DNA from: Mayamaea pseudoterrestris
Lineage: Eukaryota > Bacillariophyta > Bacillariophyceae > Sellaphorales > Sellaphoraceae
DNA: 64,000 nt
NCBI GenBank assembly: GCA_027923505.1
Contig: BROI01000017.1
Coordinates: forward strand, 62,001 to 126,000
Direction of reading: 5' to 3'
Shown in pieces: positions 1,038 through 61,629 of the stretch. The notes under the pieces are model-generated. The model did no database searches, was not told where the DNA came from, and saw only the letters and a list, made by a program, of their open reading frames with translations. Every line of letters begins with the position of its first letter. Position 1 is the stretch's first letter. Made by a program: the position numbers and the translations under genes.

Positions 1038-1933
1038 TTAGGCGTAAGTGACGAGTCAATGAAAGTGATGGCGAGAGGCGGACAGGGAAACGAGTGCGCG
1101 ATTTGCTGCACCGATGCTCGCTTTGTTTATTAAGTATTTCAAATATATCCTTTCAATTATCATCCAATAGAGTAGTATGTATGTATCAGCAGTCGAAAGA
1201 ATAAGGTGGAGAGGAGCAGCAGCTGCAGGACCACACGGAAGTTGTTATCAACCTGGAGGAACATTGATGATGCGCTCTGTCTCCCAGTGAGCCATTCTCG
1301 CGTCACGAGGCAATAGTACGAAACGAGTGCCAGTGAAAACAACGTCACAAGGCAATAGTACAAAACGAGTGCCAGTGAAAACTGCGTCATAAGGCAATAT
1401 TATGAAACAAGTGCCAGTGAAAACTGCGTCATGAGGCAATAGTACAAAACGAGTGCCAGTGAAAACTGCGTCAGCAAGCAATCTATCTGAAACGAGTGCC
1501 AGTGAAAACCCACTCATGAGGCTATAATACAAAACGACTGCCAGTGAAAACTGCGTCATAAGGCAATACTGTGAAACGTGTGCCAGTGAAAACTACGTCA
1601 CGAGGCAATAGTATGAAACGAGTGCCAGTGAAAACTGCGTCAGCAAGGCTTAAGTGGAACATGAGACGAGCACGCGGTGCACATCACAAGACGACAACAT
1701 GTTTGATGCACAAGACCATGAGATTGGTTGAGCATGCACCACGCCACTCCATCTTTACTATTACATTCAAATTCCATCAGCCATTCATTATTTACAGCCT
1801 CTTCACATACTTACGACTTTGCAGCGGAGGCAGCAGTTTCCAAAAGCTCCGCTTTGCCTTTGGATCCTCTCCTGAACTTTCATCGAGAATTCAATCGCGA
1901 GAAGGAAAGTCGACCATCAGAAGATACATCATC
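1038..1933. promoter_or_regulatory. Divergent intergenic region between GGH and TatD
   Basis: About 900 bp separate the two divergent starts. It holds the 42-bp repeat array (1300-1650). The open frames that run through it are by-products of the repeat, because 42 is divisible by three. The TatD frame is open upstream to 1571, but that stretch is repeat plus non-conserved sequence with no ATG before 1934 and is treated as untranslated. I see no other gene here. Confidence 0.6.
1300..1650 (+). repeat. 42-bp tandem repeat array 1 (bZIP-core family), 8 units
   Basis: The box GCCAGTGAAAAC recurs with its G at 1329, 1371, 1413, 1455, 1498, 1540, 1582 and 1624, a spacing of 42-43 bp. Each unit reads roughly GCGTCA or ACGTCA, then AAGGCAATAGTA, then CGAAACGAGTGCCAGTGAAAAC-like sequence. 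The ACGTCA/GCGTCA box is a CRE/bZIP-type core. The same family recurs at 28.4, 47.4 and 61.4 kb, always between divergent genes. Units here are mostly of the GTGAAAAC subtype; the GTGTCAATT subtype appears in arrays 2, 3 and 4. Confidence 0.95.
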
Positions 1934-2974
1934 ATGTCATCCACAATGAACTCCTACATTGACATTGGCGCCAATCTGCTGGACGATCGATTCTTGCAGG
2001 GCGTCTATCGCGGCCAGGCGCGACACGAGCCAGACGTTCATCTCGTCATTCAACGAGCGCGCCAAGCCAACGTTTGCAATGTGATACTCACGGCAGGAAC
2101 ATTGGAGGAGAGTCAAAGGTCCTTGCAGTACGCGAGAGAATGGAATCAGCTGTATAGTCATAGTAGCGAGGCGGCCGACGACGACCATCATGACAACGAT
2201 ACTTGCAATGCCGCCATTGACAACAGTAGAAATCCAATACGATTCTACTCCACCGTCGGCATTCATCCCACCCGATGCCAGCAAGAGTTTGTCGACTCTC
2301 CACTTGCAGACGACGAAATACTCCAGCAACTACTAGACATTGCAAAGGACGGCATGACGGACGGAACCGTCGTGGCCATTGGCGAGATTGGACTCGACTA
2401 TGATCGACTCGAGTTTTGCGACAAACATGTTCAGCATGAATACTTGATCAAGCAACTCTTAGCATTGGCGCGACCGACTGGACTGCCACTGTTTTTGCAC
2501 AATCGCAGCGTCAGCCGCGACTTGGTGCAAGTCTTGCGCGAACATGAGGATTGCTGGAAGCAAGCTGGCGCAGTTGCACATTCGTTCGATGATACGCTGG
2601 AGCTGGCGCAGGAATTCATCGAGCTGGGCTGCTACATTGGCTTGAATGGCTGCAGTCTCCGCACCGAAGACAATTTGAACACGGTCAAGGAGCTTCCGCT
2701 TGATCACATTCTACTGGAAACAGACTGCCCCTACTGCGAGGTTCGTCCAACGCATGCTGGCTACAAGTACATTCAGACGCAGTTTGAAGCCAAGGCGGAG
2801 AAGAAGTACGAGCGAAGCAAGCTAGTCAAGAGTCGTCAGGAACCATGTCACGTGGTGCAAGTGGCGGAAATCATTGCCGGAGTCAAGGATTTGGATTTGA
2901 AAGTAGTTGCAGATGCTTGCTTTGAGAATACGCGTCGATTGTTTCGTTTTGCGGCTGACGATGACGACATATAG
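1934..2974 (+). CDS. TATDN1: TatD-family metal-dependent DNase (TATDN1-like)
   Basis: TIM-barrel amidohydrolase-like 3'-5' exonuclease and AP endonuclease family, linked to DNA repair and apoptotic DNA degradation. The 346-aa product shows the family blocks in order: YIDIGANL near the start (the first metal motif, where other TatD proteins have D-x-H or D-x-G), the histidine-bearing VGIHPTR, VAIGEIGLDYDR with the metal-binding Glu, PLFLHNR with a metal-ligand His, AVAHSFDDT and the C-terminal LLETDCPYCEV with the metal-binding Asp. A Ser/Asp/His-rich insertion (about residues 80-95) is unusual. The start at 1934 is the first ATG of the long frame and precedes the conserved N-terminus directly. 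No intron is seen. It shares its promoter, which contains repeat array 1, with GGH. Confidence 0.92.
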   Translation: MSSTMNSYIDIGANLLDDRFLQGVYRGQARHEPDVHLVIQRARQANVCNVILTAGTLEESQRSLQYAREWNQLYSHSSEAADDDHHDNDTCNAAIDNSRNPIRFYSTVGIHPTRCQQEFVDSPLADDEILQQLLDIAKDGMTDGTVVAIGEIGLDYDRLEFCDKHVQHEYLIKQLLALARPTGLPLFLHNRSVSRDLVQVLREHEDCWKQAGAVAHSFDDTLELAQEFIELGCYIGLNGCSLRTEDNLNTVKELPLDHILLETDCPYCEVRPTHAGYKYIQTQFEAKAEKKYERSKLVKSRQEPCHVVQVAEIIAGVKDLDLKVVADACFENTRRLFRFAADDDDI

Positions 2975-3314
2975 AAACTTTCAAATAGTAGATGTAACAT
3001 GATATGCTTGTTACTTCTTAACGGTTTGAATGGACGTACTACTTGTTAGCTACGGCAGCGCTGTTTCAGTCGCTGCACCACATGCCGCGATGGCGCGCCA
3101 AGCCGTTTCATCAATGACGTCATTTCCCATCGCATCGGTACACACACAATGGATCCTGGAATCCGAAAGAACTTTGCGCAATCCTCCATCCATCTTTGAA
3201 GCTCTTTGGCTTCCACTGGATTTCTTCGTTTCTCTTCTTGCGTTTCAAGTGAGAGAGATTGTGCGCTAGCTCAAAGATCTTGTTATCAATTTACAACAAT
3301 CTCTTACAACCACC
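2975..3314. promoter_or_regulatory. Transketolase upstream region
   Basis: 340 bp between the TatD stop and the transketolase ATG on the same strand. It contains a perfect TGGCGCGCCA palindrome (3091-3100) and, 15 bp further on, a perfect CRE palindrome TGACGTCA (3115-3122). A 79-codon frame crosses it but has no recognisable protein features, so I read the stretch as promoter and 5' UTR. Confidence 0.55.
3115..3122. promoter_or_regulatory. CRE-type palindrome TGACGTCA
   Basis: An exact TGACGTCA, the consensus full site of CREB/ATF-type bZIP proteins, lies 193 bp before the transketolase ATG. It is a single site, unlike the tandem arrays of related cores elsewhere in the window. Regulatory function is inferred from the motif only. 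Confidence 0.4.
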
Positions 3315-5587
3315 ATGACGAACAAAAAGACTGACGATCTCGCCATTACGTGCATCAACACGATTCGCTGCGTCTCGGCCGACCAGCCGCAGAATGCCAA
3401 CAGCGGTCACCCTGGGGCGCCCATGGGATGCGCCCCCATGGCGCACTTGCTTTGGGGAGAAATGATGAATTACTCGAGCAAGGACCCGGCCTGGGTGAAC
3501 CGTGATCGCTTTGTGCTGAGCAATGGACATGCCTGCGCCTTGCAGTACACGATGCTGCACTTGACTGGATACGACTTGAGCATTCAGGATTTGAAGGAGT
3601 TTCGCAAGCTCAATAGCAAGACTCCGGGACACCCCGAGTGTTTTGCGTCGGATGGTATGTTTTTATACACGCGAGCTTGCGAGTGGTTGAAATTTGCGAG
3701 AGGAGAGATGCGATAGGACGAGAAGGATGATCAAATATCAACAACTTGATGATCTCCTTGATCGAATCTTCTTGACAAGTGCTTGCGCTAAGCTATATGC
3801 TTGTATCTAATGTTTTCCTTGTTGCTCTTTTACATTCAGGCATTGAGCTCACGACGGGTCCACTTGGCCAAGGCATTTCCAACGCTGTCGGATTGGCCAT
3901 TGCCGAGCGCCACCTTGCCGCGACCTTTAACCAAGACAAGTTTGACGTCTTTGACCACTATACCTATGTCATTTGCGGAGATGGGTGCTTGCAGGAAGGT
4001 GTTTCGGGCGAGTCTGGCTCACTTGCTGGACATTTGGGACTTGGTCGCTTGATTGTCTTGTACGATGACAATTCCATTACCATTGATGGAGAAACGGAGC
4101 TTTCCTTTACCGAGGATGTCTTGAAGCGCTACGAAGCCTATGGTTGGCACACTCAGTCGGTTCCTGATGTTGCCAATAACGTCGACGAGTTGCGCGAGGC
4201 CATTTTGAAGGCGCGAGCCGTCACGGACAAGCCAAGCATGATCAAGGTCAAGACCATGATTGGACAGGGCAGTCCTTCCAAGCAAGGCAAGGAGAGTGCG
4301 CATGGATCGCCACTTGGCAAGGACGATCTTGCGGCAATGAAGAAGTCGTACGGCTTTCCTCCCGACCAAGACTTTTACATTCCCAAGGAAGTTCAAGACT
4401 ACTACGACAAGGCGTCGGCCAAGGCTGACGAGAAGCGCTTGGAATGGGAGAAAATGTTCCAAGACTACACCAAGGCGCATCCCGAGCAGGCGGCGGAGAT
4501 TTCGCGTCGGTTCGCCCACAAGTTGCCCGAAGGTATTTTGGACAAGCTTCCTACTTACAAGGCTGGCAAGGACAAGGATTTGGCCACGCGCAAGCACAGT
4601 CAGTTGTGCTTGACCGCAATCGGTCCCAACATGCCCGAACTCATTGGAGGGTCAGCCGACTTGACTCCTTCCAACTTGACCGACTATCCTGGCGTTGTCG
4701 ACTTCCAAAAGGACAGTTACATGGGACGCTACTTGCGCTTTGGTGTGCGCGAGCACGGCATGGTGGCCATTTCCAACGGAATATTTGCGCACGGTGGATT
4801 GCGCCCGTACTGCGCCACCTTTCTCAACTTTACCGGCTACTGCCTGGGTGCGATTCGCTTGACGGCGTTGAGTCGATTCGGTGTCATTTTCGTCATGACG
4901 CACGACTCCATTGGCTTGGGCGAGGATGGACCTACACATCAGCCCGTTGAGACTTTGGAGCAGCTGCGCTGCCTGCCCAACATTCACGTCTTTCGGCCAG
5001 CCGATGGCAACGAAATGGCGGCAGCCTACGCGTCGGCCTTGAACACCTTTGAAACGCCAACGGTCATTTGCTGCTCGCGCAGTACGGTCAAGAATTTGGA
5101 ATCGTCGTCGGTTGAAAAGGCTGGCAAGGGAGCGTATGCTGTCATTGAAGAGGCCAACCCCGACCTTGTTGTCATTTCAACTGGATCGGAAGTCGAGTTT
5201 TGCGTTGCTGCGGTTGAAAAGCTGGTTGAGTCTGGCATCAAGACACGCGTCGTGTCCATGCCTTGCCAGGAAATCTTTTTGAATCAGTCGGAAGAGTACC
5301 AACGCTCCGTCTTGTCCGGCAATGTTCCAACGCTGTCTGTCGAGGCGTCTGTTGTGAATGGCTGGCACCGTTTTAGCCATGGTCAGATTGCCATGGGCAA
5401 GTACGGAGCCAGTGGAGCAGGCCCCGAAGTGTTCAAGGAGTTTGGATTCAACGCCGAAAACATTGCTGAACAGGGCAAGAACCTCGTCGACTTTTACAAA
5501 AAGCATGGCAATATTCCGGACGTGATGAACCGGCCTCTTCCGTTCTACAAGTTGAACGTTGGACAAGGCGAAGGCGTTCCTCATTAA
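3315..5587 (+). CDS. TKT: Transketolase, one intron
   Basis: Thiamine-diphosphate enzyme of the pentose phosphate and Calvin cycles that moves two-carbon ketol units between sugar phosphates. Exons 3315-3654 and 3840-5587; the 185-nt intron begins GTATGT, ends CATTCAG and splits the codon for the Gly of CFASDGIELTTG. The 695-aa product is full length: GHPGAPMG near the N-terminus, GPLGQG, the diphosphate-binding GDG (CGDGCLQEG), the pyrimidine-domain FGVREHGM with the catalytic Glu, and [16 protein letters not shown]. It starts [11 protein letters not shown] with no signal or transit peptide, so a cytosolic enzyme is likely; a plastid copy would have to be encoded elsewhere. Its stop is 116 bp from the stop of the convergent neighbour. 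Confidence 0.97.
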
Positions 5588-5703
5588 GCCATTGTAGATA
5601 GTTGAAAAGGAATTAGTATTTGTTTACACTTTTACATGCTAATTGTAGTTGTAGCGTTGACGTTCGAATATGTATTGATTGCATATGTAATTCTTGTGTA
5701 GTA

Positions 5704-13447: not shown

Positions 13448-16345
13448 ACAAATGCCCCTACAGCAAGCCATATAAACACCCAAATTACACCAGAATGGTC
13501 TCAACATCATTATTAAGCCTGCGCTACAAGGTGGTATGCTTGGCTGGTGTCTCCGTAGACAGCAATGTGATTGGTGACAACTTGTCACCAATCTCAGCCC
13601 ACTGATGCCTTGACATTCAAACGCCCCTACAGCAAGCCATGTAAACACCCAAATTACACCAGAATGGTGCCAACATCATTATTCAGCCTGCGCTACAAGA
13701 TGGTATACTTAAACTGGTGTCTCCGTCAACTGCAATGTGATTGGTGACAACTTGTCACCAATCTCAGCCCACCAATGCCTTGACATTCAAAGGCCCCTAC
13801 AGCAAGCCATGTAAACACCCAAAATTATATCAGAATGGTGCCTACATCATTAATTTGCCTGCACTTCATGTTGGTATGCTTGGCTGGTTTCTCAGTAGAC
13901 TGCAATGTGATTGGTGACAACTTGTCTCCAATCTCAGCCCACCAATGCCTTGACATTCAAACGCCCTTACAGCAAGCCATGTATACACCCAAATTACACC
14001 AGAATGGCGCCAACATCATTTTGCAGCCTGCGCTACAAGATGGTATGCTTAATTATTGTCTCCGTGGACTGCAATGTGATTGGTGACAACTTGTCACCAA
14101 TCTCAGCCCACTGATGCCTTGACATTCAAATGCCCCTACAGCAAGCCATGTAAACACCCAAATTACACCAGAATGGTCTCAACATCTTTATTAAGCCTGC
14201 GCTACAAGATGGTATGCTTGGTTATTGTCTCCGTTAACTGCAATGTGATTGGTGACAACTTGTCACCAATCTCAGCCCACTGATGCCTTGACATTCAAAC
14301 GCCCCTACAGCAAGCCATGTAAACACCCAAATTACACCAGAATGGTGCCAACATCATTATTCCGCCTGCGCTACAAGATGGTATGCTTGGCTGGTGTCTC
14401 CGTAGACTGCAATGTGATTGGTGACAACTTGTCACCAATCTCAGCCCACTGATGCCTTGACATTCAAATGCCCCTACAGCAAGCCATATAAACACCCAAA
14501 TTACACCAGAATGGTCTCAACATCATTATTAAGCCTGCGCTACAAGGTGGTATGCTTGGCTGGTGTCTCCGTAGACAGCAATGTGATTGGTGACAACTTG
14601 TCACCAATCTCAGCCCACTGATGCCTTGACATTCAAACGCCCCTACAGCAAGCCATGTAAACACCCAAATTACACCAGAATGGTGCCAACATCATTATTC
14701 AGCCTGCGCTACAAGATGGTATACTTAAACTGGTGTCTCCGTCAACTGCAATGTGATTGGTGACAACTTGTCACCAATCTCAGCCCACCAATGCCTTGAC
14801 ATTCAAAGGCCCCTACAGCAAGCCATGTAAACACCCAAAATTATATCAGAATGGTGCCTACATCATTAATTTGCCTGCACTTCATGTTGGTATGCTTGGC
14901 TGGTTTCTCAGTAGACTGCAATGTGATTGGTGACAACTTGTCTCCAATCTCAGCCCACCAATGCCTTGACATTCAAACGCCCTTACAGCAAGCCATGTAT
15001 ACACCCAAATTACACCAGAATGGCGCCAACATCATTTTGCAGCCTGCGCTACAAGATGGTATGCTTAATTATTGTCTCCGTGGACTGCAATGTGATTGGT
15101 GACAACTTGTCACCAATCTCAGCCCACTGATGCCTTGACATTCAAATGCCCCTACAGCAAGCCATGTAAACACCCAAATTACACCAGAATGGTCTCAACA
15201 TCTTTATTAAGCCTGCGCTACAAGATGGTATGCTTGGTTATTGTCTCCGTTAACTGCAATGTGATTGGTGACAACTTGTCACCAATCTCAGCCCACTGAT
15301 GCCTTGACATTCAAACGCCCCTACAGCAAGCCATGTAAACACCCAAATTACACCAGAATGGTGCCAACATCATTATTCCGCCTGCGCTACAAGATGGTAT
15401 GCTTGGCTGGTGTCTCCGTAGACTGCAATGTGATTGGTGACAACTTGTCACCAATCTCAGCCCACTGATGCCTTGACATTTAAACGCCCCTACAGCAGGC
15501 CATGTAAACACCCAAATTACACCAGAATGGTGCCTACATCCTTATTCAGCCTGTGCTACAAGATGGTATGCTTATTTATTGTCTCCGTCAACTGCAATGT
15601 GATTGGTGACAACTTGTCACCAATCTCAGCCCACTTATGCCTTGACATTCAAACGCCCCTACAGCAAGCCATGTATACACCCAAATTACACCAGAATGGT
15701 GCCAACATCATTATTCAGCCTGCGCTACAAGATGGTATGCTTGGTTATTGTCTCCGTCAACTGCAATGTGATTGGTGACAACTTGTCACCAATCTCAGCC
15801 CACTGATGCCTTGACATTCAAACGCCCCTACAGCAAGCCATGTATACACCCAAATTACACCATAATGGTGCCAACATCATTATTCAACCTGCGCTACAAG
15901 ATGGTATTTTGGTTATTGTCTCCATGGACTGCAATGTGATTGGTGACAACTTGTCACCAATCTCAGCCCACCGATGCCTTGACATTCAAACACCCCTACA
16001 GCAGGCCATGTATACACCCAAATTACACCAAAATGGTGCCAACATCATTATTCAGCATGCGCTACAAGATGGTATACTTGGCTGGTGTCTCCGTTAACAG
16101 CAATGTGATTGGTGACAACTTGTCACCAATCTCAGCCCACCAATGCCTTGACATTCAAAGGCCCCTACAGCAAGCCATGTATACATCCAAATTATACCAG
16201 AATGGTGCCAACATCATTAATCAAAAAGCTTCACTACAAGATAGTATGATTGGTTAGTGTCTCAGTAGACTTCAATGTGACTGGTGAGAAGTTCTCACCA
16301 GTCTCAGCCCGCAGATGCCTTGACATTCAAATGCTTCTACAGCAA
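13448..16345. repeat. 169-bp satellite array, about 17 monomers, with 1016-bp higher-order repeat
   Basis: Monomers recur every 169 bp (for example equivalent points at 13911, 14080, 14249 and 14418). A six-monomer block is repeated almost exactly: 13448-14463 matches 14464-15479 at an offset of 1016 bp. The last monomers from about 15500 diverge progressively. Each monomer holds a palindrome with 11-bp arms ATTGGTGACAA and TTGTCACCAAT around one C (for example 13740-13762). Since 169 is not a multiple of three, the array cannot encode a repeated protein; the many 66-67-codon frames in it are artefacts of the repeat. Confidence 0.95.
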
Positions 16346-28371: not shown

Positions 28372-28546
28372 TGACGTAATTGACACTGGCACTTGTTTCA
28401 TACTATAGCCTTGTGACGTAATTGACACTGGCAGTCGTTTCGCAATATTGCCTTTTGACGCCATTGACACTGGCACTTGTTTCGTAGTATTGCCTTGTGA
28501 CGTAATTGATACTGGCACTTGTTTCATACTATTGCCTAATGACGTA
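28372..28546 (-). repeat. 42-bp tandem repeat array 2 (bZIP-core family), 4 units
   Basis: The ACTGGC box recurs at exact 42-bp steps (28384, 28426, 28468, 28510 as the reference base). Units begin TGACGTAATTGACACTGGCA and continue CTTGTTTCATACTATTGCC-like. It is inverted relative to arrays 1 and 3. It sits between the divergent TAF11 (start 28246) and importin alpha (start 28754) genes. Immediately after it a G/C hairpin (GCCCCCG and CCGGGGGGC, about 28563-28587) occurs. Confidence 0.95.
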
Positions 28547-28753: not shown

Positions 28754-30745
28754 ATGCAGAATTCCGGAGAGGTGAGTGAGAGAATGCGCCGCGCGATAAT
28801 GTTGATCGCAATCATGCAGTTTTGCCGCTCCGCAGCAGCCGTCGTGGTCGTTGTCGCCAGTAAATTTGAATCTATTTTACTTGTATTTGCTCGTTTAATG
28901 TATGCTTCATTCAGTCTCTTTCATTGCTTTTCGCTACCGTAATTATTTGGAACGCCATTGTTCTTGCTTCGCCTTCCTTTACTATCATTGATCCATCTAT
29001 TCACTCGCTCACTCGCTACATTCATGTTCTGACGCCATACTCCTATTTCGTTTCATTTTCTTGTACAGCCACGCGCCGCAACTGGTACCGCTCGTAATCT
29101 CAAAAAGACGGTCGACTTGGAGGACTCTCGTCGCAGCCGCGAGGAGACGACGATTCAGCTCCGCAAGAACAAGAAGGATGCTCGACTGGCCAAGCGCCGT
29201 CAGATGAATGTTGAAGATGCGTCGCTCAGTACTCCGGCGGGACGAGCCGCCGCCATGATGCTTTCGAATGCTGGAGATTCGACTTACGCGGACATGATTG
29301 ACGAAAATGGCATGGGAGTCGCGACGGATGGACAGGGCAATGCCATGCCGGCCGTCAATGCGCGCCAGCTCGAGCAGATTCCAGTCATGATTCAGGGACT
29401 CATGAGCAACGATCCGACGACACAGACGGAAAGCACGACGCAGTTTCGCCGCTTGCTATCCATCGAGAAATCGCCGCCAATCCAGCAAGTTATTGACTCT
29501 GGAGTAGTTCCTCGCTTTGTCGAGTTTTTGCAGCGCGACGACAGTCCGGCGCTCCAGTTTGAAGCCGCTTGGGCGCTTACCAACATTGCCAGTGGAACAA
29601 GCGATCATACCAGGGTTGTTATGGAGTCGGGCGCGGTGCCAATCTTTGTCCGCTTGCTGTTGAGTCCAAATGATGACGTTCGCGAGCAAGCTGTTTGGGC
29701 GCTTGGAAACATTGCTGGTGACTCGCCTCCTTGCCGCGACTTGGTCTTGCAGGCGCAAGCGATGCAGCCGCTCCTCATGCAGTTGCACCAAAACTCCAAG
29801 TTGTCCATGCTGCGCAATGCGACTTGGACGTTGAGCAACTTTTGTCGCGGCAAGCCGCAGCCGGACTTTGAGTTGGTTCGTCCGGCCTTGCCAACGTTGG
29901 CGCAGCTCATCTTTAGTCCCGACGAGGAGGTTTTGACGGATGCTTGCTGGGCGCTCTCCTACTTGAGCGATGGTCCGAACGAAAAGATCCAGGCCGTCAT
30001 TGAAGCTGGCGTCTGTCGCCGCTTGGTCGAGCTCTTGCTCAATCCGAGTCCAGCCGTTCAGACTCCGGCGTTGCGCACGGTCGGAAACGTTGTGACTGGA
30101 AACGACTTGCAGACGCAGTTTGTCCTCAACAATAACGCGCTTCCTTGCTTGCTGGCGCTCTTGAGCTCGCCCAAGAAGGGCATTCGCAAGGAAGCCTGCT
30201 GGACTATTTCCAATATTACGGCTGGCAACAAGGAGCAAATCCAGGCAGTCATTGAGAACAATATTATTCCGCCGCTCATCCAGCTCTTGTCGAATGCCGA
30301 GTTTGACATTCGCAAGGAGGCGGCTTGGGCGATTAGCAACGCGACGAGTGGAGGCTCGCCGGAGCAGATCAAGTTTCTTGTCCACCAGGGCTGCATTCGC
30401 CCGCTCTGCGACTTGCTCATCGTTTCGGACCCCAAGATTGTCACGATTGCCTTGGAAGGTTTGGAAAACATTTTGCGCATTGGAGAGGACGAGGCGCGTG
30501 CCACTGGCAATCCCAACCAAATGACTTTGCACATTTCGGAAGCGGAGGGCCTCAACAAGATTGAAGACTTGCAGCAGCACTCCAACAATGAAATTTACGA
30601 GCGCTCGATCAAGATCTTGGAAACGTACTTTGGTGTTGAAGACGACGATGAGATGGCGGCCATTGCACCAGCCATGGTTGGTGGCCAATTTGGCTTTGGC
30701 ATGGACCAGCAGCCGCCGACTGGCGGATTCAACTTTTCCGGTTAG
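28754..30745 (+). CDS. Importin alpha (karyopherin alpha), one intron
   Basis: Nuclear-import adaptor that binds classical NLS cargo and importin beta. Exon 1 is only 18 nt (28754-28771, MQNSGE); the 297-nt intron starts GTGAGT and ends TTGTACAG; exon 2 is 29069-30745. The 564-aa product has an N-terminal IBB domain (DSRRSREETTIQLRKNKKD and LAKRRQMN). About ten ARM repeats follow, with the conserved NLS-binding Trp/Asn arrays (AAWALTNIASG, AVWALGNIAGD, ATWTLSNFCRG, ACWALSYLSDG, ACWTISNITAG, AAWAISNATSG). The acidic C-terminal stretch is present. A very small first exon with a long first intron is a place where intron-borne enhancement could act. Confidence 0.95.
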
Positions 30746-31255: not shown

Positions 31256-31450
31256 TGTTGTGAATACGCACTCGCCATGACTCATTAATATCCCATTCTG
31301 TCCACCATCCATTCCATCGCTTCGCTCTCAGCCACTCGATTAGCAAGAGTCTCCTGGCGCTTACCGCCATGAGCTCATAATGTAACAATTCAACGTTATT
31401 GAACTAGTTTGCTTCGAGTGTCTGCTGTAGTACCTTGCGGCCCTTCAACA
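31256..31450 (+). repeat. 5' LTR of the Copia element
   Basis: 195 bp, same length and apparently the same sequence as the 3' copy at 36762-36956. Ends TGTTG and CAACA. It contains TGACTCATTAA, an AP-1-like core, near its start. Confidence 0.95.
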
Positions 31451-34400
31451 GAATTGTTACATCTCACCCACCCGCTACCATTGCTCCTCACAGAATCCTC
31501 CAGCTCCTCCGTACCCTTCTCCGCCGCCTCTTCCGTGCCTCCCATCCCAAGATGAACATCACGCTCCCTACGCTCGATCCTTTGACCATCATCGAAGGCA
31601 AGCCTACTTACTCTACCCTTACTATCGCCTCTGCTCAACTCCGCGCCAACGCTCGCAAGATTCCTGCCCGTTCTGATGACAACGGCCATGATTTTCTGTG
31701 CATGACGGACGCCGAGATCCTCGAACGCTTCCCTGATCCAGCCGCTCCCTTTGACCGCCCAACTCGCCCCGAGGAGCTCGGTCTTCAAGTCGCTGGCCTT
31801 ACCCAAAACCAACTGACTGAGCGCAATCGCATTCACAAAGAAAAATCCGACGATTTCAAGCTCATGCTAGTTGCCGACACTGCTCTCAAGACTTGCCTCC
31901 TTGCTGCTCTCAACGAAGACTACTATTCCGTCCTCAGAAACCGTCGTACCATCTACGCCAATCTCACCACGCTGCAGATCCTCACGCATCTCACCACCGC
32001 CTACGGACGCGTTTCCAACCAGGAACGCAAAGACAACGTTCTTCGTCTCCTCACGCCGTGGGATCCCAACGATCCCATCGAGCGCATTTGGAGTCGCATC
32101 ACCGACATCAACGACTTTGCCGAAGATGCCGGCACGCCCATTCCACCGGAACAACAGATCCACGACACGCTCCTCGTCCTCAACAACAGTGGCGTGTTTG
32201 CCGCCGATCTCGCCGCCTACGACCGCGATGTCGACGAGGTGGACCGCACCATGGAGAATCTTCAGGCCCGTTTCAACAAGGCCAACGACAAGCGCTTGGA
32301 GCACCGCACGGCTGGCCAAGCTGGCTATCAGGATCATGCCAACCTCGCGCAAACCGCCGAGTTAACTCGCCTCCGTCGCCAGTTGCAGCAGGCGATGGCC
32401 GCCATTCGCGATGGGACGCCCGCACCTACTCGTGTCACCCCTGCGACACCCACCACGCCTGCTCCAGCTATCACGCCTACGCCAGCGGCAGCGCCCACCG
32501 CTTCACCACGCGCCCGTCACTATTGCCACACTCATGGCTTTGGTCTCAACTACCGCCACACTAGCGCTACTTGCCAAAACCCTGGTCCAAATCATGTCAG
32601 CACGGCGACCGCTGACAATACCATGGGTGGCACCCTTACCGAGATGAGTCCTCGCAATCCCGCCAACCCTCGCAGCTGAGATGGAGGGACGCCAGTGATT
32701 GATAACACCTATAGCACCATGTCTCATGCTTATAGTACTTGTTTTTCGTTATCCTCTATCACTGGTCCTCCCGCCAATCCTACTTTTACCCTCATAGCTG
32801 ACAGTGGCGCCTCTGCCCACTTTGTCACCGTTAGCGCTCCCATCTTAAACAAGATTGCTACGACACACCCACTTGCAATTCAAACTCCCAACGGCACCCT
32901 CATGCATTCAACTCATGAGGCAACGCTCAACATTCCCGGTCTTCCCGAGTCGGCCACTAAAGCTCATATTGTCCCTGCTTTATCTACTCACTCCCTCCTT
33001 TCCCTCGGCACACTTTGTGATGCAGGCTGCCTCGTCTCCCTTGACAAGGAGCGAGTCCTCGTGCATTATAAAGAAGCGCTCGTCCTGAGTGGCGCTCGGT
33101 GTCCGGCCACTGGACTCTGGCAAATGGAGCTCCCTGCGCCATTGCCACAGAGCGCGCTTACTACCATTGGCGATCCCAAGTTGCCTGAGCTCATCACATT
33201 CTATCATGCCGCCCTTGGCTCGCCCAGTCTCCGCACCCTTGAGACTGCGCTCACTAAAGGGTTGCTACCCCACTTCCCTGGCCTAACAGCCAGCAACCTA
33301 CGCAAGCATCCGCCCGTCTCCTTTGCCATGCATAAAGGCCACATGAAAGCCCTACGCCAAGGCCTCCGTTCCACCAAGACACCAACTACAACAACAAACG
33401 CAGACGATGACGACGACGGCGACGTTTTCTTTCCTCTACAAGAAGGAACCGTTGCGACGCGCCACCACTGCTACGCCTCCTTTTTCAAGCCTACTGGTCA
33501 AATTTATACTGATCAAACTGGCAAAGTGTTTAATCCCTCGCTCAACGGGAATCAATACATCATGGTTCTATATGATTACGACAGCAATTATATCTGGCTC
33601 GAACCATTCAAAACTCGCAACGCCACCTGCATTCTCGAGGCCTACAAATCCCTTCTTAAACGCCTCACTCGCGCTGGTCTCCAACCCCAGCTCCAGCGTC
33701 TTGATAACGAATGCTCCCAGCTTTTAAAAGACTACATGCACGACCAAAAGATTGATTTCCAGCTGGTCGGTCATGGATTGCACCGCCGCAACCTCGCGGA
33801 ACGAGCCATTGGCACGTTTGAAAACCATTTTGTTGCTATCCTCTGCGGCATTGACAAAGCTTTTCCTCTCCATTTGTGGGATAAACTCATTCCCCAGACT
33901 GAAATCACACTCAATATGTGCCGCGGCTCTCGCATCAATCCCAAGCTGTCTGCCTACACGCTAGTGCATGGACTCTTCGACCTCAACCGCACGCCTCTGG
34001 CCCCTATCGGCATCCGTGTCCTTGCTCATGTTCCTACTGAAGACCGTGGATCCTTTGAGCCTCGCGCACTTGATGGTTGGTATCTCGGTCCTGCGCTTGA
34101 CTCGTACCGAGGCCATCGCGTGTGGATTTGGAAGACGAACGCCGAACGGACATGCCATCAAGTCACATGGCTGCCTCCGCCTGCCATTCCAATGCCTCTC
34201 TCTACGCCTGATTCACGCATACATGCGGCATTGGAAGACCTCAAACTCGCCATCGCCTCCACTGATCCACCGGCATCCCTCACACCGACTACCGACAGTC
34301 GCGTCCGTGCTCTTGCCGACCTCATCGCTCTCTACCAACCTCCTGCTGCCGACCCTGCGCCACTTCTGAGGGTGGACAACCCGCCAACTGTCTCTCCACC

Positions 34401-36761
34401 GCCTGGGTTTGCGCCACAAATGAGGGTGCCGACTGACAAGGCCCTCCCCTCTCCGGCGGCCCTCCCCTCTCCGGCAAGCGCACCTACTCGTGTCACCGAT
34501 ACGACACCTGCCACGCCGCTCGGTTCGCCACCAACGCCAACCCCTTCGCCAGTCCCCACGCCTGACGTGCCGCCCGCCGCACCGCCGCCCGTTGACGCGC
34601 CAACCTCGCCTGCTGTCACCTATGATGACGTCACGGGCCCACGCCGCCGCCGCCGCAAGACCAAGAAACCCGACGCCGATCCTCCCCTCCACGATGAGCC
34701 CTCCGCTCACGCTGATGGATTGCCGTCCATTTCCCCCCATCAAGCTCGCCGCAATGAACAACTCGCTCTTAAACGAGTCCGTTTTCTCCGTCCTTCCCCT
34801 TTGTCTCCTCATCCTAAACGCCCCAGCCGACTCTCCATCTTTCCTACCCAGCCAAAGCAACGTCCCATCACGGACTTCGTCCGCTCCACACCCCGGGGCA
34901 AGGCAATGACGGCGCTTCGCGAATTCAACCTTGGCGTCGCAAAATGGACTGACATTGAAACAACTTGCAACCGACTCGGCTTCGCCTACCTTGGCAGCGC
35001 CATCAATCCCGATACTGGCCGTGTGGCTGAAATTCGCGAACTGCTCGAATGCAGCGAAGGCAACGAGTGGGAAGCCTCCATGATTGATGAACTTGCGCGC
35101 CTCAGCCAAGGCTACAACGACATCAAAGGCACCGATACGCTACGCTTCATCCACTATCGCGACGTACCCGACGACAAGATCCCTACGTATGCCCGCATCG
35201 TCTCCGCCTGGCGCCCCGAGAAGGAGAATCCTCGGCGTGTCCGCATCACCGTCGGCGGCGATCGCATCAACTATCCTGGCGCCACTGCTACTAAAGCCGC
35301 CGACTTGACCACCGTTAAAGTGCTCCTCAACTCGGTTATCTCTACACCTGGCGCGCGATTCGCTACAATCGACATCAAGGACTTCTATCTGAACACGCCC
35401 ATGGAAACGAAGGAATACATGCGCATCTCGCTCAACCTCATTCCCGACGCCTTTCGCCTGCTCTACGATCTCGATTCCAAAGCTCACAACGGCTACATCT
35501 ACACTGAAATCTCAAAGGGCATGTACGGTCTCCCTCAAGCTGGCCGCTTGGCACATGACTTGCTCGTCAAGCGCCTCGCTGCTCATGGTTACTCGCCCGC
35601 GCCGCTCACGCCGGGTTTCTGGCGCCACAAAACGCGACCCATCTGCTTCTCGCTCGTTGTTGACGACTTTGGCATTAAATATACTGATAACGCCGATCTG
35701 GATCACCTGCTGGCCGCTCTCCAAGCCACTTACAAAGTCAGTCTGGATCTCACTGGCGCCCGCTACTGTGGCCTCACCATTGACTGGGACTACCCGCACG
35801 GCACGTGTGATATCTCCATGCCCGGCTACATTGAAAGAGCACTCGAACGTTTCCAACATCAAATGCCTGCAAAGCCCCAGCACTCGCCCCACGCCTGGCT
35901 CAAACCCGTCTACGGCGCCAAGCAACAATTTGCTCCGGCGCCCGACGACACTGCTACTGTCAATAAAGCTGACGCTACACGCGTTCAAGAGGTGATGGGC
36001 GTCCTGCTTTATTACGCGCGCGCCGTTGATTCAACACTACTCAAAGCGCTCAACGAAATTGCCTCTAAACAAGCCGCCCCAACTCACAAAACAATGCTCG
36101 CCTTCCTACAAGTCCTCGATTACTGCGCCTCAAACCCCAATGCCATTGTGCGTTTCACTGCCAGCGAAATGTGTTTGTGGCAACATAGCGACGCCTCCTA
36201 TCTCTCTGCCGCCAAAGCTCGCTCGTGCGCTGGTGGTTTCCATTTTCTAAGCAGCTGGCCCGAGTCCCCTCTTGGCCCCACTAGCAAAGCTCCACCTCAC
36301 AACGGCGCTATCAACGTACTTTGTCAAATCATGAAGGAGGTCCTCTCTAGCGCCGCCGAGGCAGAACTCGGAGCGCTCTTCCATAACGCCAAAGAAGCTT
36401 GTCCCATTCGTCATCTACTAGAAGAATTGGGGCATCCTCAACCAGCTACACCGCTACAAACTGACAACGTCACTGCCGCTGGCATTGCCAACGACACTGT
36501 TAAACAAAAACGCTCCAAAGCTATTGACATGCGATTCTACTGGCTACGCGACCGCGTCGACCAAAATCAATTCCAAATCTATTGGAGCAAGGGAGCTGGA
36601 AACCTTGCCGACTACTTTACTAAGCATCATCCTGCTTCCCACCATCAAGATATCCGCTCTGTTTACCTGCACGACGGCCTCGCCTCTCCGAATTACTTCG
36701 AACGCCTCGCTGCCGCTACAGAGCCTGTCTAACTTTCTTCTCATGGATTGTGGTGAGGGTG

Positions 36762-36956
36762 TGTTGTGAATACGCACTCGCCATGACTCATTAATATCCC
36801 ATTCTGTCCACCATCCATTCCATCGCTTCGCTCTCAGCCACTCGATTAGCAAGAGTCTCCTGGCGCTTACCGCCATGAGCTCATAATGTAACAATTCAAC
36901 GTTATTGAACTAGTTTGCTTCGAGTGTCTGCTGTAGTACCTTGCGGCCCTTCAACA
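36762..36956 (+). repeat. 3' LTR of the Copia element
   Basis: 195 bp, apparently identical to the 5' copy. It is followed directly by the CCATT target duplication and then by the second part of the interrupted host repeat. Confidence 0.95.
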
Positions 36957-37122
36957 CCATTGATATGATTGGATGAATGGTACGTCACAAATGACCTTGC
37001 CGTGACTGTTGCCGCCACCACGATTTGAGTCGCCATGGCTGCCGGCGGCTGCTATTCCGCGGCTTCCGCAGACGATGAACATTACTTATCAACAAAAGCA
37101 ACTGTCTCTTTCATGCATCGTC

Positions 37123-39110: not shown

Positions 39111-39540
39111 AGAATGTAGAGGGACTGGGTCAACCTTGTATTGGCTTGCTATTAGTCGTGTCATTTGCTACTGCATGCTTCCCACGGTGTTGGCTGAATA
39201 CATAGCTACTTTCTGTCTATCTCATTGTATTATGATTTTGTTGCCAAAGTTTGTTTGCAGTTCTACCTCAAACTGCGTTGCACCAATAGGTGCCCAATGA
39301 TGTGGCCTACCTGTAGAAGACAGAGAGAGTTAAGAAACATCTTTATTTATACTCCTATCCCGAAAACCGTCTCCCCACCTGTAGTGACAAGCGATAATTG
39401 ATAGATTCACAGATGTATGTGGGACATTTGTCAAGTCTAAACCCCGCGTGACTGATCAATATATTCCTTAACCTACTCATTCCCTGGACTAAAGAATAAT
39501 TGCATGTCCTGGTTGCTTTCTTTATTCTGAAATGAGTTAT

Positions 39541-40237
39541 GACAGCCACCGACTGTGGACAAGCCTGGGGACACGAAATTCTGGCGGTCCTAGAGGCAGA
39601 ACTTGGAGACTACACGGACTGGAGATGAATGCATTGCACTTTCATCTTCATGAAACAATGCCTGTCAACTGCCAGCTATCAGTTTATACCTCTCTGGCCA
39701 TTGGAGTGGGTCATCATGGCAGCCAGCTACTGTGGACAAGCCTGGGGACACAAAATTCTGGTGGTCCTACAGGCAGAACTTGGAGACAAGATGGGGTAGT
39801 GATGAATGTATTGCACTTTTGACACCTTGAAACAATGCCTGTCAACTGCCAGCTATCAATTTATACCTCTCTGGCTGCTGGAGTGGGTCATGGCAGCCAG
39901 CTACTGTGGACAAGCCTGGGACCGCAAATTCTGGCAGTCCCTGTTGCAGAACTTGGAGACTACATGGGGTAGTGATGATTGCATTGCACTTTTGACATCA
40001 TGAAACAATGCCTGTCAACTGTTAGCTATCAATTTATACCTCTCTGGCTGTTGGAGTGGGTTATGGCAGCTAGCTACTGTCGACAAGCCTGGGGCCTTAA
40101 AATACAGGCAGTCCTACTGGCATATCTTGGAGACTAGATGGGCTAGTGATGAATGCATTGCACTTTCTACATCATGAAACAATGCCTGTCAACTGCCAGC
40201 TATCAATTTATATATCTCTGGCTGTAAGAGTGGGTTC
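39541..40237. repeat. Approximately 175-bp tandem repeat, 4 copies
   Basis: The phrase CCTGTCAACTGCCAGCTATCA recurs near 39660, 39838, 40010 and 40185, giving steps of 172-178 bp. Other shared phrases are CTACTGTGGACAAGCCTGG, GAACTTGGAGAC, ATGAATGCATTGCACTTT and TTTATACCTCTCTGGC. Copies differ by scattered substitutions and small indels, so the array is older than the nearly identical blocks of the 169-bp satellite. The two families share no sequence that I can see. Confidence 0.9.
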
Positions 40238-40532
40238 AGCTGCTGTAAACAAACCCACCATTCTTACGCAAAATAGTTTCAAAGCATAGCCTGAAAGACT
40301 CCAGTAGGTAGTGGTCAACATCATATGCTAAATAGCTCCATGATTTGACTGTACAAGCATCTGCCCTCACATGCATCATTCCAGGCTACAAATGAGCTAG
40401 ACATAATTCAGGTGCACCACTCTCACCGCAAACTGCCTTAGTGCCAAGCAGCGGGTAGTGTTTAAAGGCCGCACATGAATGCACCATGGAGCTGCCAGTA
40501 GTGTCTGTGTCTACTAATACAGCCAGCTAACG

Positions 40533-44283: not shown

Positions 44284-44401
44284 TACTACGCTACTAGAGC
44301 ACACAGACACATTTACGGCTTGTGAAAATATTAATAAAACTACACTTACAATATCTGTAGCGCAATCCTTGTTCAAAATGGTTTATAGTTTGCCGCGCAT
44401 T

Positions 44402-47305: not shown

Positions 47306-47870
47306 TGGTGATATAGATTCAAGTAATTTGTTAAGGACGATTGCTGGACTGTCGATGGTCACACAGGAATAATGCAATCAAGTCGGGCTGCCTCGCAACT
47401 ATTTCGTCAAGGCAATAGTACGAAACGAGTGCCAGTGTCAATTACGTCATCAGGCAATAGTACGAAACAACTGCCAGTGTCAATTACGTCATAAGACAAT
47501 ATTACGAAACGAGTGCCAGTGAAAAATGCGTCATAAGGCATAATTGTGAAACGAGTGCCAGTGAAAACTGCGTCATTAGGGCAATAATAGGAAACGAGTG
47601 CCAGTGAAAACGACGTCATCATGGCAATAGTACGAAACGAGTGCCAGTGAAAACGACGTCACAGAGGCAATAGTACGAAACGAGTGCCAGTGTCAATTAC
47701 GTCACAGGGCAGTAGTACGAAACGAGTGCCAGTGAAAACGACGTCACAAGGCGTCTGTCGTTTCCTGCACCTTGACGACGCCGAAGAAGCGAGAGTCTTC
47801 TCTCTCATGATCAAGTCTATAAACAGCTGCTGCGAGGGATGAGATAACATTATAGCATTCAATTACCAAC
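47306..47870. promoter_or_regulatory. Divergent promoter, MYND gene / plastid protease, with array 3
   Basis: 565 bp between head-to-head starts, more than half of it occupied by repeat array 3. The remaining 115 bp before the protease ATG contains TATAAACAG near 47818, a plausible TATA-type element. Confidence 0.55.
47404..47755 (+). repeat. 42-43-bp tandem repeat array 3 (bZIP-core family), 8 units
   Basis: The G of GCCAGTG falls at 47431, 47473, 47515, 47557, 47600, 47643, 47686 and 47728. Units alternate between two subtypes after this box: GTGTCAATTACGTCA and GTGAAAACGACGTCA. The second subtype places the bases GACGTCA, and thus nearly a full CRE palindrome, in three units. Between cores each unit carries GGCAATAGTACGAAACGAGT. 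Confidence 0.95.
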
Positions 47871-54306: not shown

Positions 54307-54703
54307 TGTTGATGGGCGCTGATGAATGACGAATTATGAACGAACTGAAATTTTGGAGCGAGAAAATGAGGCGATAGTCCGTAATCAAATCCTGTTTATT
54401 CAAGCTCGTCTCGGGGAGGCTTGTTAGTGGTTCGGGTATTGGTAAAGACTAACATGAAGGGTGGATGATCATCATCATGGTGAAAAATGAGTGCCGACAA
54501 AAACTGACGAATTGTAAGTCGTTCACGTTTCCTTGTTAGACTTTGAGTAACGCTACGATGTTTATCGGAACGGTACTCAATCGCATGAACGATGACGAAC
54601 AACTCGACCATGGCCACGCAAAACTGACAGTGAGTGCTCATCAGCCGCCCGTTCTTACGCACCCTGATTACAAGCAATAATTTACCAGTGACATACAGCC
54701 ACG
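54307..54703. promoter_or_regulatory. Divergent region, FANCM / ferredoxin
   Basis: 397 bp between head-to-head starts. A minus-strand frame crosses 54396-54677 with one usable internal ATG but no family resemblance. A GTAAGT at about 54515 and a TACAG just before the ferredoxin ATG (about 54698) could frame a 5' UTR intron of that gene. Neither is established. Confidence 0.4.
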
Positions 54704-55213
54704 ATGCAAGCTATACATAGAATTAGAATAACTTCTAGCAGAGGTCTGCAACAGTCGATGCAAAGATCAAACGTCATCGTCTCTAGTACATCACAACTAC
54801 AATCACCATCAGTTCATTTCATTCGATGGCACGGAGGCGGGCCTGGAGCCGATGCTCCCACCATCACAGTCTCCTTTAGACTTGCCGACGACTCGATCAA
54901 AACAGTTGATGCTCGGATTGGTGAGTCACTGCTACAAACAGCACACCGCCATGACGTGGACTTGGAAGGCGCCTGCGAAGGTGTTTGTGCCTGCAGCACC
55001 TGCCATTTGATATTTCCGGCAAGCATTTATGATCAGCTACCGGAACCATCAGAAGATGAAGAAGATATGCTGGACATGGCATTTGGATTGACTGAAACAA
55101 GTCGACTTGGGTGTCAGGTCATTGTCACGCCGGAAATGGAGAATGCAGTATTGGAGTTACCCAAGGCGACAAGAAACTTTTATGTGGATGGGCATGTCCC
55201 AAAGCCGCATTAG
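54704..55213 (+). CDS. Mitochondrial adrenodoxin-type [2Fe-2S] ferredoxin
   Basis: Electron carrier for mitochondrial iron-sulfur cluster assembly and haem A synthesis (Yah1/FDX family). 169 aa. The N-terminal 50 residues are Arg/Ser/Gln-rich and poor in acidic residues, a typical mitochondrial presequence. The fold shows TITVSFRLADDSIKTVDARIGESLL, then the cluster ligands in the C-x5-C-x2-C pattern within GACEGVCACSTCH and the fourth Cys in RLGCQV. The family's acidic helix EDEEDMLDMAFGLTETSRL precedes the last ligand. No intron in the coding region. Confidence 0.94.
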   Translation: MQAIHRIRITSSRGLQQSMQRSNVIVSSTSQLQSPSVHFIRWHGGGPGADAPTITVSFRLADDSIKTVDARIGESLLQTAHRHDVDLEGACEGVCACSTCHLIFPASIYDQLPEPSEDEEDMLDMAFGLTETSRLGCQVIVTPEMENAVLELPKATRNFYVDGHVPKPH

Positions 55214-58852: not shown

Positions 58853-59563
58853 CTCTCGAAGGCTGGTCTATGGGAGCAACGTTTTCGATGCTATAGAACG
58901 TTGCGAATCGAACTATACTGCTTGCTATTCTGATATGATAAAGTTTAACAGACCCAAGGCGATTGCTATGAGCGAAGAAGGTGTGGGAGGAAAGTGTGAA
59001 TCGATCGTTACTCGTTCGCGAAAGGACGCGACGAGGAAGCGTGCGGAAGCGGTGAGGCAGATCAGTCGTGTGAGTGGCATTTTGCGTTCCGACTAGATCG
59101 TGAAAAAGAACGTGAAGAATTAATTCGGAACCACTTTTGCTATTGCCTTTAGCCAGGCTCTAATTGGGGAGGCGTCTAGAGCAGCCCCAATTTACGTTGA
59201 AGCTGTTTTATGCATTCTATGTTTCTTATTTAGTACAATCTATAGCTACAGAATATACCCAGTGTAGGTTGAATAGTGGAAAACACTCATCAACGATCAT
59301 GATGACTCTGAAACATGACGTGCTTGCCCGAATGGCCTTGTTCGGGCTATTCCAAGCACATTCCGCATGACTATGATATATTCTTTTTAGTCGGAGAATG
59401 TCCATCACCCGGAAAGGATCCGGATCCGCGCCTCAACCTCGCCTCACTTGACACCACACATCGCTCGTCGATCAGTTTCGTTCCATCGAAAGTGACCCAA
59501 TCAAGTCGACCAACCAAACAACTCGTCTCCTTCCACTTACATTCTACTTTCATCTACATTACA
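58853..59563. other. Divergent intergenic region, poly(A) polymerase / 95-aa gene
   Basis: 711 bp. A plus-strand frame continues from inside the PAP gene to 59096; its only part outside PAP is a basic 42-codon peptide from an ATG near 58970, which I cannot support as a gene. A pyrimidine-rich 5' leader precedes the 59564 ATG. No promoter repeat of either family. Confidence 0.45.
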
Positions 59564-59851
59564 ATGTCAGAAGACAAGAAATCCAAGAAGGACAAGATCA
59601 AAAAGTCGGGCGTCCGCACCAAGTTTCTCATCGAGTCACTCCGAAACGACTACTACGCGTTGCGCGAGGAGAATGACCGCCTTCGTCAAATGGTCACGGA
59701 GAATCTAGCGGAGGATGCCGCCAAGGCGATACTGGCCGATTGCTTTGATCCAAACGCGCCTCGCGCCAAGGTGGATAACATTGATGATCTCGCCATGCAG
59801 GGAGCGGAAGATGACGCGGAGGACGGCGATGACTCGGATGTTGGATTCTAA
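59564..59851 (+). CDS. Small coiled-coil protein, 95 aa
   Basis: Not assigned to a named family. A Lys-rich N-terminus (DKKSKKDKIKKS) leads to a short coiled coil, RTKFLIESLRNDYYALREEN then DRLRQMV. A helix AEDAAKAILADCFDPNAPR and a very acidic tail (EDDAEDGDDSD) follow. The frame is open upstream to 59315 without conserved content; 59564 is chosen for its AACAATGTC-type context and the sharp onset of Lys/Glu-rich coding sequence. Short proteins with this DY-x-L-x-x-EN-x-x-LR pattern followed by an A-x-x-IL-x-x-C helix seem to me to recur among stramenopile hypothetical proteins, but I cannot verify that. The basic stretch lacks the N-x7-R signature of bZIP factors. Confidence 0.7.
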   Translation: MSEDKKSKKDKIKKSGVRTKFLIESLRNDYYALREENDRLRQMVTENLAEDAAKAILADCFDPNAPRAKVDNIDDLAMQGAEDDAEDGDDSDVGF

Positions 59852-60430
59852 TCAACACGTGACAGGTACGACTAAACGGACATGAAAGTCACTCGGTAAA
59901 AGCACTTTCTGTTATACATGTCAATCAAGTGATTACGTTAAAGCCATCACACTAGCAATAGCAATAAAGTCACCTCATTGGTCTTGTTTGTTCTTTTAGA
60001 ATCTTTGTAGATTCAGTGTCGCGTGTCGCAGCATTATACGATTATGATGCAGATTGCAATTGTAATGTTCGCGTCGCGCATGGCAGATGCATCTGCATTA
60101 TAAAATAACAATGTGCTACTTTCGTGTGTGCAGCCATCTCCTTGCGGTTTAAGAGCTGTAGCTATCATAAACAATGTATAGGAAAGTAGAATTTAAATGC
60201 TATTGACTGCCTGGTGAACGAACAGAGCAGTTGTAATAAAAGGAAACAACGATTTCAACAACGATCGACGCTACATGTATTCCCTGTACCAGCACGATCT
60301 GCCTCGACGGCCCTTGTCACTCGAAACATGGAAGAATTTTGGAACAAGATTGCTGTGACGCGACAATTAGTGTACTCGCCCGTCAACATGCATGTCCGGT
60401 ACTGTATCAGCTATCATTATGCCTTGCGCA
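59852..60430. other. Convergent intergenic region, 95-aa gene / mucin-like gene
   Basis: 579 bp between two facing stops. A/T-rich and without repeats. Long frames that cross into it from 60214 onward are antisense shadows of the mucin-like gene. Confidence 0.5.
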
Positions 60431-61346
60431 TCATATATTGTAATCTCGCTGCGGCCCTCGAATATCAGCCTCCGGAACATCCGAATAGCCGCCGCCAAAT
60501 CCCTTTCGCGACGAACGTTGTGGCACGTCGAACAGTTCCAAACCACTGGTTGGCAACTGCTGGTTTCGCTGCCGCGTGTTATGATGCGACAAGAGTCCTG
60601 CCGCGACAAAGACGGCGAGCAGCAGTCCAACGCCAAGACCAAAGCCTCCGCTGCTGCCGGATGCAGCGGGTTGCTCGACGGTGCGAGTGGAAGCCGCAGT
60701 GACGGAAGCAGTGTCGTCGTCATCCACGGCGCGCGCCGGAGTATCGCCATCGCCATGTCTGCTCGGAGTATGACTGTTACTGCTGCTGCTACTGCTGGTT
60801 TTTGTGGTCGTAGCGGTGGACGTCTGCTTGGAAGCAGAAGGTGCAGCGTCAATGGGTGCAGGCTGCACCAATCGAGGCTCATGGTAGCCCGTATTTTCGT
60901 AGGGCGTGTAGTCTAGCTCCAGCTGCTGCTTTAGCGTGGGTCTCACTGTTGGATATGGAGTCGTCGTCGGATACCAAGTCGTCGTTGGACGCCAAGTAGT
61001 GGTAGGCTGTCTGTATTGTCCATGCAGCGAGTGAATCCAGTAGTGAGAGACAAACAACTAATGATTCATTGGAACTCCACACACACACAAACAATTATAT
61101 ACTACAATATATCGATCATAAAACAATCCCGTTTGCATGAGCTTACATGGTAGGTGATGGCTCCTCCAATCGTCTACCGGTAGATGGAGACGGAGCAATG
61201 ATCAAGTTGTTGCGTTTCTCGATTGACACTCGTGGATCATTCGACGTACGAGAAAGTGTAGATTCCATCGCATCATTCACTGTCAAGCAGCAACATGCAG
61301 TCGCCATTGACGAAAGCAGCGCCAGTCGTATCCTTGTCATTCTCAT
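60431..61346 (-). CDS. Type I membrane protein with Thr/Pro-rich mucin-like ectodomain, one intron
   Basis: I do not recognise a family. Exons 61147-61346 and 60431-61010; the 136-nt intron begins GTAAGC and ends AATACAG, and the phases match. 259 aa: a signal peptide (RLALLSSMATACCCLTV) and a basic segment are followed by repeats PTTTWRPTTTWYPTTTPYPT (about 68-87). A Ser/Thr-rich stretch, likely heavily O-glycosylated, leads to a single membrane helix (GFGLGVGLLLAVFVAAGLL, about 195-213). A short cytosolic tail contains LELFDVP and GGGYSDVPEAD. Such proteins are common at algal surfaces and in cell-wall or frustule-associated sets; that role is a guess. Divergent from SNF7 across array 4. 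Confidence 0.75.
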
Positions 61347-61411
61347 GGTGCAAATGATGGTGATGATGGATTGACCGGCTGATGATGTTGGCCATGGTCG
61401 ACAGTTTCTGG

Positions 61412-61629
61412 TGACGTAGTTTTCACTGGCACTCGTTTCGTACTAATGCCTGAATGACGTAGTTTTCACTGGCACCCGTTTCGTAATATTGCCTTGTGAC
61501 GTAATTGACACTGGCACCCGTTTCGTAATATTGCCGTATGACGTAATTGACACTGGCACTCGTTTCATAATATTGCCTCATGACGCAGTTTTCACTGGCA
61601 CTCGTTTACACTATTGCCTTGTGACGTGG
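61412..61629 (-). repeat. 42-43-bp tandem repeat array 4 (bZIP-core family), 5 units
   Basis: The C of CACTGGC falls at 61424, 61467, 61509, 61551 and 61593. Units start TGACGTAGTTTTCACTGGCA or TGACGTAATTGACACTGGCA, the same two subtypes seen in array 3, and continue CTCGTTTCGTAATATTGCC. Orientation is as in array 2, opposite to arrays 1 and 3. It lies between the divergent mucin-like gene (start 61346) and SNF7 (start 61820). Confidence 0.95.

Follow-up and report, generated by a model that had tools for sequence, protein, structure and literature searches.

The closest described counterparts of the element reported here are short promoter words of Phaeodactylum tricornutum, the CO2/cAMP-response elements (CCREs), for which the cores TGACGT (CCRE-1), ACGTCA (CCRE-2) and TGACGC (CCRE-3) have been given (PMC4915529; this and the papers below are cited from excerpts). 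TGACGT/C is found on both strands in the promoters of PtCA1, PtCA2 and PtBST1; where a promoter has it on a single strand, a different mode of regulation was suggested by the authors (PMC11142338). A dsCYC2-promoter fragment containing TGACGT is bound by aureochrome 1a, a stramenopile bZIP-LOV protein (PMC4721966). Among repeats in promoters, the dual repeat (2 x 75 bp) of the Phalaenopsis GDPS promoter is needed for full expression and was bound by a bZIP protein in yeast one-hybrid; in the excerpted text, no known bZIP core word was recognized in it by the authors, who cite a minisatellite of the apple MYB10 promoter that is also needed for full expression (PMC5996158). Here, we analyzed a 64,000-nucleotide stretch of Mayamaea pseudoterrestris DNA (contig BROI01000017.1, positions 62,001 to 126,000; "the window"), in which one family of 42-bp repeats built around TGACG[T/C] forms four arrays, each located between the start codons of two divergent genes. 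As far as the excerpts go, none of the matches listed from the openly licensed literature describes this repeat, or any minisatellite dispersed over divergent promoters.

A single 42-bp repeat family at four loci

Tandem Repeats Finder called four period-42 arrays in the window (Table 1), and these arrays, designated A to D, together hold 8+4+8+5 = 25 units of a single family. Minisatellites are head-to-tail copies of a 10-100-bp unit, and with units of 42-43 bp in 4-8 copies at four loci the family falls into this class. A 19-base block of the unit, with up to 3 mismatches allowed, matched 24 times in the 64-kb window, always within the arrays, while 0.02 matches are expected by chance. The 25th unit, the last of array D, escapes this pattern through a 1-bp deletion and was recovered by a profile hidden Markov model of the units. 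The latter returned 25 matches with E-values up to 3.5e-8 and no 26th copy in the window, the next match having E = 0.93. An initial annotation of this DNA had proposed one 42-bp family in arrays of 8, 4, 8 and 5 units that occurs nowhere else in the window, and both programs agree with it.

Table 1 Position and surroundings of the four arrays in the window
Array	Content	Position	Strand	Left gene	Right gene	Distance to left/right ATG (bp)	Tandem Repeats Finder call
A	8 units of 42-43 bp + closing TGACG	1300..1649	minus	GGH (-), ATG 1037	TatD (+), ATG 1934	262/284	1300-1649
B	4 units + closing TGACG	28372..28546	plus	TAF11 (-), ATG 28246	importin alpha (+), ATG 28754	125/207	28372-28546
C	8 units + closing TGACG	47404..47755	minus	zf-MYND gene (-), ATG 47305	aspartyl protease (+), ATG 47871	98/115	47408-47752
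D	5 units + closing TGACG	61412..61629	plus	secreted/mucin-like gene (-), ATG 61346	SNF7 (+), ATG 61820	65/190	61412-61627

The step from one full unit to the next is 42 bp in 16 of the 21 intervals and 43 bp in the other five, and the last unit lies 42, 42, 40 and 41 bp from the closing TGACG in arrays A, B, C and D, respectively. The unit count for array A leaves out a further CACTGG-like match that lies 16 bp past the first base of the array's closing TGACG. The period had been taken to indicate about four helical turns, placing bound factors on one face of the DNA; this argument is weak, because tandem duplication alone fixes the period.

Outside the window, an exact 19-mer of the unit had no match in the viral_contigs collection, and array C had none in the phage records. 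A two-unit pattern hit one stretch in viral_contigs (L001) and one in genome_contigs (L002, from a Treponema metagenome-assembled genome). When scored with the unit profile, neither stretch showed an array (best E: L001, 0.27; L002, 0.068), and both were dismissed as chance matches.

A bipartite module and the possible constraint on it

Each unit is composed of a 27-bp bipartite module and a looser 15-bp linker. The module starts with TGACG[T/C], which is followed at a fixed 12-bp offset by CACTGGCA.T.GTTT. In line with the initial annotation, TGACG is present in 24 of the 25 aligned units, with T as the next base in 15 and C in 9 of them. In all 25 units, CACTGGCA (at most 1 mismatch) starts exactly 12 bp from the first base of TGACG or, in unit A4, of the altered form of TGACG. 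Columns 1-27 are free of insertions and deletions in every unit (25/25). The length differs from 42 bp in seven units (A4, C2, C3, C4 and D1 with 43 bp, D5 with 41 bp, and C8 with 40 bp to the closing TGACG). Each of these differences lies 3' of column 27, that of C8 at the junction itself; the neighbouring units C2-C4 may share one length event. TGACG does not occur on the opposite strand within any of the four arrays.

Two linked subtypes can be distinguished at columns 11-12 before CACTGG, with GA in 9 units and TT in 16; array A has only TT, array B only GA, and C and D have both. On average, units differ from one another by about 18%, and the mean identity between units of different arrays (0.76-0.84) is close to that within an array (0.82-0.85). 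Of the 25 units, 11.75 have their nearest neighbour within their own array, compared to 5.9 in shuffles (13 of 2000 shuffles reach the observed value). This excess indicates that some local duplication has taken place on top of a shared pool.

Based on the sequence of the units and their position, we tentatively propose that the arrays are tandemly repeated composite bZIP cis-regulatory elements that have been dispersed and act on both flanking promoters, a proposal to which we give somewhat less than even chances. Each unit would provide a bZIP half-site, TGACG[T/C], then a second site, CACTGGCA.T.GTTT, for a partner factor, and then a flexible linker. Nearly as likely is a non-functional minisatellite that settles in open promoters: circles or template switching would bring it into nucleosome-free promoter DNA by way of TGACG microhomology, it would have no regulatory role, and its location would reflect insertion bias. 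The near equality of unit identity between and within arrays fits such neutral dispersal. On the other hand, TGACG and CACTGGCA.T.GTTT have stayed largely intact despite the divergence of the units, and the decayed or solitary copies to be expected from neutral spread were not found by the profile scan of the 64 kb. The initial annotation had offered a cis-element and a mobile minisatellite landing in promoters side by side, and both readings survive.

The conservation of the module was assessed by simulation under homogeneous rates on a fitted tree, where alignment column 42, which is mostly gap, was excluded from the rate tests. Eighteen of 42 columns are invariant compared to about 6.9 expected (standard deviation 2.4-2.5), a number reached by 1 of 2000 simulations in one run and by none of 2000 in another. 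When the CpG columns and the linked columns 11-12 were dropped, 17 of 34 columns were invariant (5.8 expected), and when unit A4 was dropped as well, 19 of 34 (8.3 expected). The CpG within TGACG is retained in 24 of 25 units compared to 12 of 25 for that within TTTCGTA (Fisher p = 3e-4).

Several results weigh against a functional module. The CpG of CTCGTTT (columns 23-24) is retained in 20 of 25 units, which is not significantly different from TGACG (p = 0.19); the weight of these CpG comparisons would depend on whether CpG is methylated in this organism. The conserved columns cluster weakly along the unit (1675 of 20000 shuffles). Furthermore, a 169-bp satellite of the same window, intended as a non-functional control, has a gamma shape alpha of 0.39, similar to 0.41 for the unit. 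Such a spread of rates is in accord with a neutral minisatellite, and uneven column rates are therefore no proof of function. The excess of invariant columns is weaker in the satellite than in the unit (115 of 169 compared to 100 expected; reached by 23 of 2000 simulations when all 17 copies are used and by 26 of 2000 when only the 11 distinct ones are). Taken together, selection on the module appears somewhat more probable than its absence.

The control satellite itself occupies 13449-16345 in a convergent gap with 17 copies. Copies 1-6 (13449-14464) and 7-12 (14465-15480) form an exact 1,016-bp duplication without a mismatch, which thus points either to a higher-order duplication of very recent origin or to an effect of the assembly. 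Positions 118-148 of its unit match their own reverse complement to 90%.

The arrays might also be parts of transcripts, either as structured RNA or as coding repeats. An open frame indeed covers most of array A (stop-to-stop open reading frame (ORF) 1251-1592, minus strand), and of six folded two-unit stretches, one was somewhat more stable than its shuffles (z = -1.94). However, the other five have z between -1.1 and +0.7, the window has no Rfam match at the gathering score and no tRNA, and the 43-bp units disrupt the reading frame, so that we regard this explanation as hardly probable at all.

Upstream location and array ends

Each of the four arrays is flanked by the start codons of a divergent gene pair, at 65-284 bp from either ATG. 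Of the eight flanking genes named in the initial annotation, seven are backed by Pfam: the GGH-type gene (Peptidase_C26/GATase) and TatD at array A, TAF11 (TAFII28, 28.5 bits at a cut-off of 27) and importin alpha at array B, the MYND gene (zf-MYND) and the aspartyl protease (Asp_protease_2) at array C, and SNF7 (Snf7) at array D. The mucin-like gene at array D is without a Pfam family, and its name stands by resemblance seen by eye, namely a signal-peptide-like first exon, a Thr/Ser-rich stretch and a C-terminal hydrophobic segment. A plastid-type presequence of the aspartyl protease, which is in keeping with a diatom, and a first intron of importin alpha at about 28772-29068 were likewise recognized by eye. 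Among the 60 of 94 matches listed from a PDB search with importin alpha, importins were returned.

The 27 gene models of the window delimit 9 divergent gaps (previously given as about ten), 8 tandem and 9 convergent ones. Several gene starts are estimates from ORFs, a Copia-like element is not counted as a gene, and six models have no Pfam family above the cut-off (four 'unk' ORFs, the mucin-like gene and a ferredoxin-like ORF). The arrays occupy 4 of the 9 divergent gaps and none of the 17 others, as had been stated for tandem and convergent gaps. The chance that all four fall into divergent gaps is 0.008 by gap count; by length, it is 0.0007 unmasked and 0.006 when the 169-bp, 63-bp and 174-bp repeats and the Copia-like element are masked. 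All of these statistics are post hoc and concern n = 4 arrays.

Under a promoter-proximal null, the chance of an all-divergent placement rises to 0.09 when counted over the bases up to 400 bp from a start, or 0.23 when counted over promoters, as a neutral minisatellite with an insertion bias would have it. Against our proposal, five of the nine divergent gaps are free of any copy, and the element is therefore not needed for divergent promoters as such. As there are only four arrays, 'divergent' and 'promoter-proximal' are inseparable. The upstream location is thus likely to be real, which upholds the placement described earlier, while a preference for divergent gaps in particular, the second part of that claim, is not established.

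Regularly spaced arrays between divergent start codons of functionally unrelated genes may also be expected if they formed a putative chromatin boundary or nucleosome-excluding array, which would keep the two promoters apart or open with the aid of a dedicated DNA-binding protein. The copy-free divergent gaps disagree with such a role and the bZIP-type core rather suggests a transcription factor, making a boundary distinctly unlikely. With four to eight modules sitting between two start codons, an array of composite bZIP elements could instead serve the two flanking genes as a common upstream enhancer.

The array ends bear on how the family may have spread. Every array consists of a whole number of modules plus one extra TGACG (4/4). 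At the right ends, TGACG is kept and the repeat is left after 6, 7, 9 and 6 bases in A, B, C and D, respectively. The left ends are at TGACG, and a clear run into the preceding linker occurs only in array C (6 bases); array A shows GCCTTG with a 1-bp shift (by eye), and the extensions of B and D are within the expectation for random sequence. As to target-site duplications, each of the four arrays has TGACG at the start of its first unit and again behind its last one, yet TGACG also belongs to the unit.

Comparison of the unique flanks between the loci gave a longest common match of 10 bp (best E 0.29), and the flanks had no match at E 0.01 in the rest of the window. Inverted pairs of at least 12 bp (ungapped, 9-base seeds) were absent from all four gaps; a single imperfect inverted self-match of 18 bp (E 0.33) occurs in array D. 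An inverted-repeat DNA transposon or miniature inverted-repeat transposable element is not seen, as there are no terminal inverted repeats of this length around the arrays, and a larger mobile element around them was rejected because of the flanks and the missing inverted repeats. Whole-promoter duplication, which would leave long shared flanks, is not seen either.

Flanks of this kind, together with right ends that are phase-locked just past TGACG in four of four arrays, are compatible with neutral dispersal. The array structure would fit excised repeat circles that join at an existing TGACG and, equally, local growth from a TGACG-bounded module. If the arrays are composite bZIP elements, a family-wide source may spread the cassette, for example through circles that are excised from an array and re-join at a TGACG that a promoter already contains, and local duplication may later alter the copy number. 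A further-reaching version, which we consider rather doubtful, is that of a dispersible cassette: by joining TGACG in divergent promoters, the composite-bZIP minisatellite would put unrelated gene pairs under one regulator, with the copy number of 4-8 as a dial.

The window contains further repeats and features. A Copia-like retrotransposon at 31256-36965 (RVT_2, E 8.5e-6; SH3_retrovirus, E 2.4e-4; both below the Pfam cut-off) is bounded by 204-bp direct repeats that are 99% alike, and its insertion is therefore probably young. At its ends as called there is no 4-6-bp target-site duplication, and the unit profile of the minisatellite has zero matches within it. A 173-174-bp repeat is present in four copies of about 85% likeness (39539-40238) in the DNA that separates a START-domain gene from a MutL gene, with stops in all six frames. 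The ORF at 54692-55210 carries a GACEGVCACSTCH motif and no Pfam family passed the cut-off; by eye, we take it to resemble a mitochondrial-type [2Fe-2S] ferredoxin.

Comparison with known regulatory systems

The initial annotation had considered a shared CO2/cAMP regulon, of the kind controlled by PtbZIP11. The core is exactly TGACGT or TGACGC, the words of CCRE-1 and CCRE-3 (PMC4915529), in 24 of 25 units, as such a regulon would require. However, the cores lie on one strand per array, unlike those of PtCA1, PtCA2 and PtBST1 (PMC11142338), and none of the recognized flanking genes is a carbon-concentrating gene. TGACGT occurs 54 times in the window, 17 times in the arrays and 37 times outside them. 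With 35.2 (standard deviation 5.8) expected for the whole window, its frequency outside the arrays is that of chance. As TGACGT is, moreover, also bound by aureochrome 1a, the idea is weakened, and we consider a CO2/cAMP regulon highly unlikely. The full TGACGTCA is not enriched in the window (3 compared to 1.4 expected; 16 of 100 shuffles reach 3). One full palindromic TGACGTCA is located at 3115-3122, in the gap between TatD and transketolase, upstream of the latter.

In the cases compared here, as far as excerpted, promoter minisatellites with transcription-factor sites have so far been described locus by locus (PMC5996158). If our proposal is correct, one family over several bidirectional promoters with core-locked ends would make visible how a repeat assembles a common regulon as it spreads, and such repeats may act as movable gene-control cassettes.

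The arrays described here share their core words with the P. tricornutum CCREs, and both lie upstream of start codons (PMC4915529, PMC11142338). In contrast to the CCREs, the arrays repeat a 42-bp unit directly 4-8 times, and this unit carries a second conserved block; their cores are confined to one strand, and the divergent promoters in which they sit belong to genes outside carbon concentration. With the aureochrome 1a target they share the half-site word TGACGT, but the fragment described in the excerpts of that work has a single site and no repeat array (PMC4721966). Like the Phalaenopsis GDPS and apple MYB10 repeats, they are minisatellite-like repeats in promoters; those are single-gene cases of other sequence, for which dispersal over divergent pairs is not described in the excerpted text (PMC5996158). 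The arrays of M. pseudoterrestris differ from all of these in that one unit family is found at four unrelated bidirectional promoters, with its ends locked on the core.

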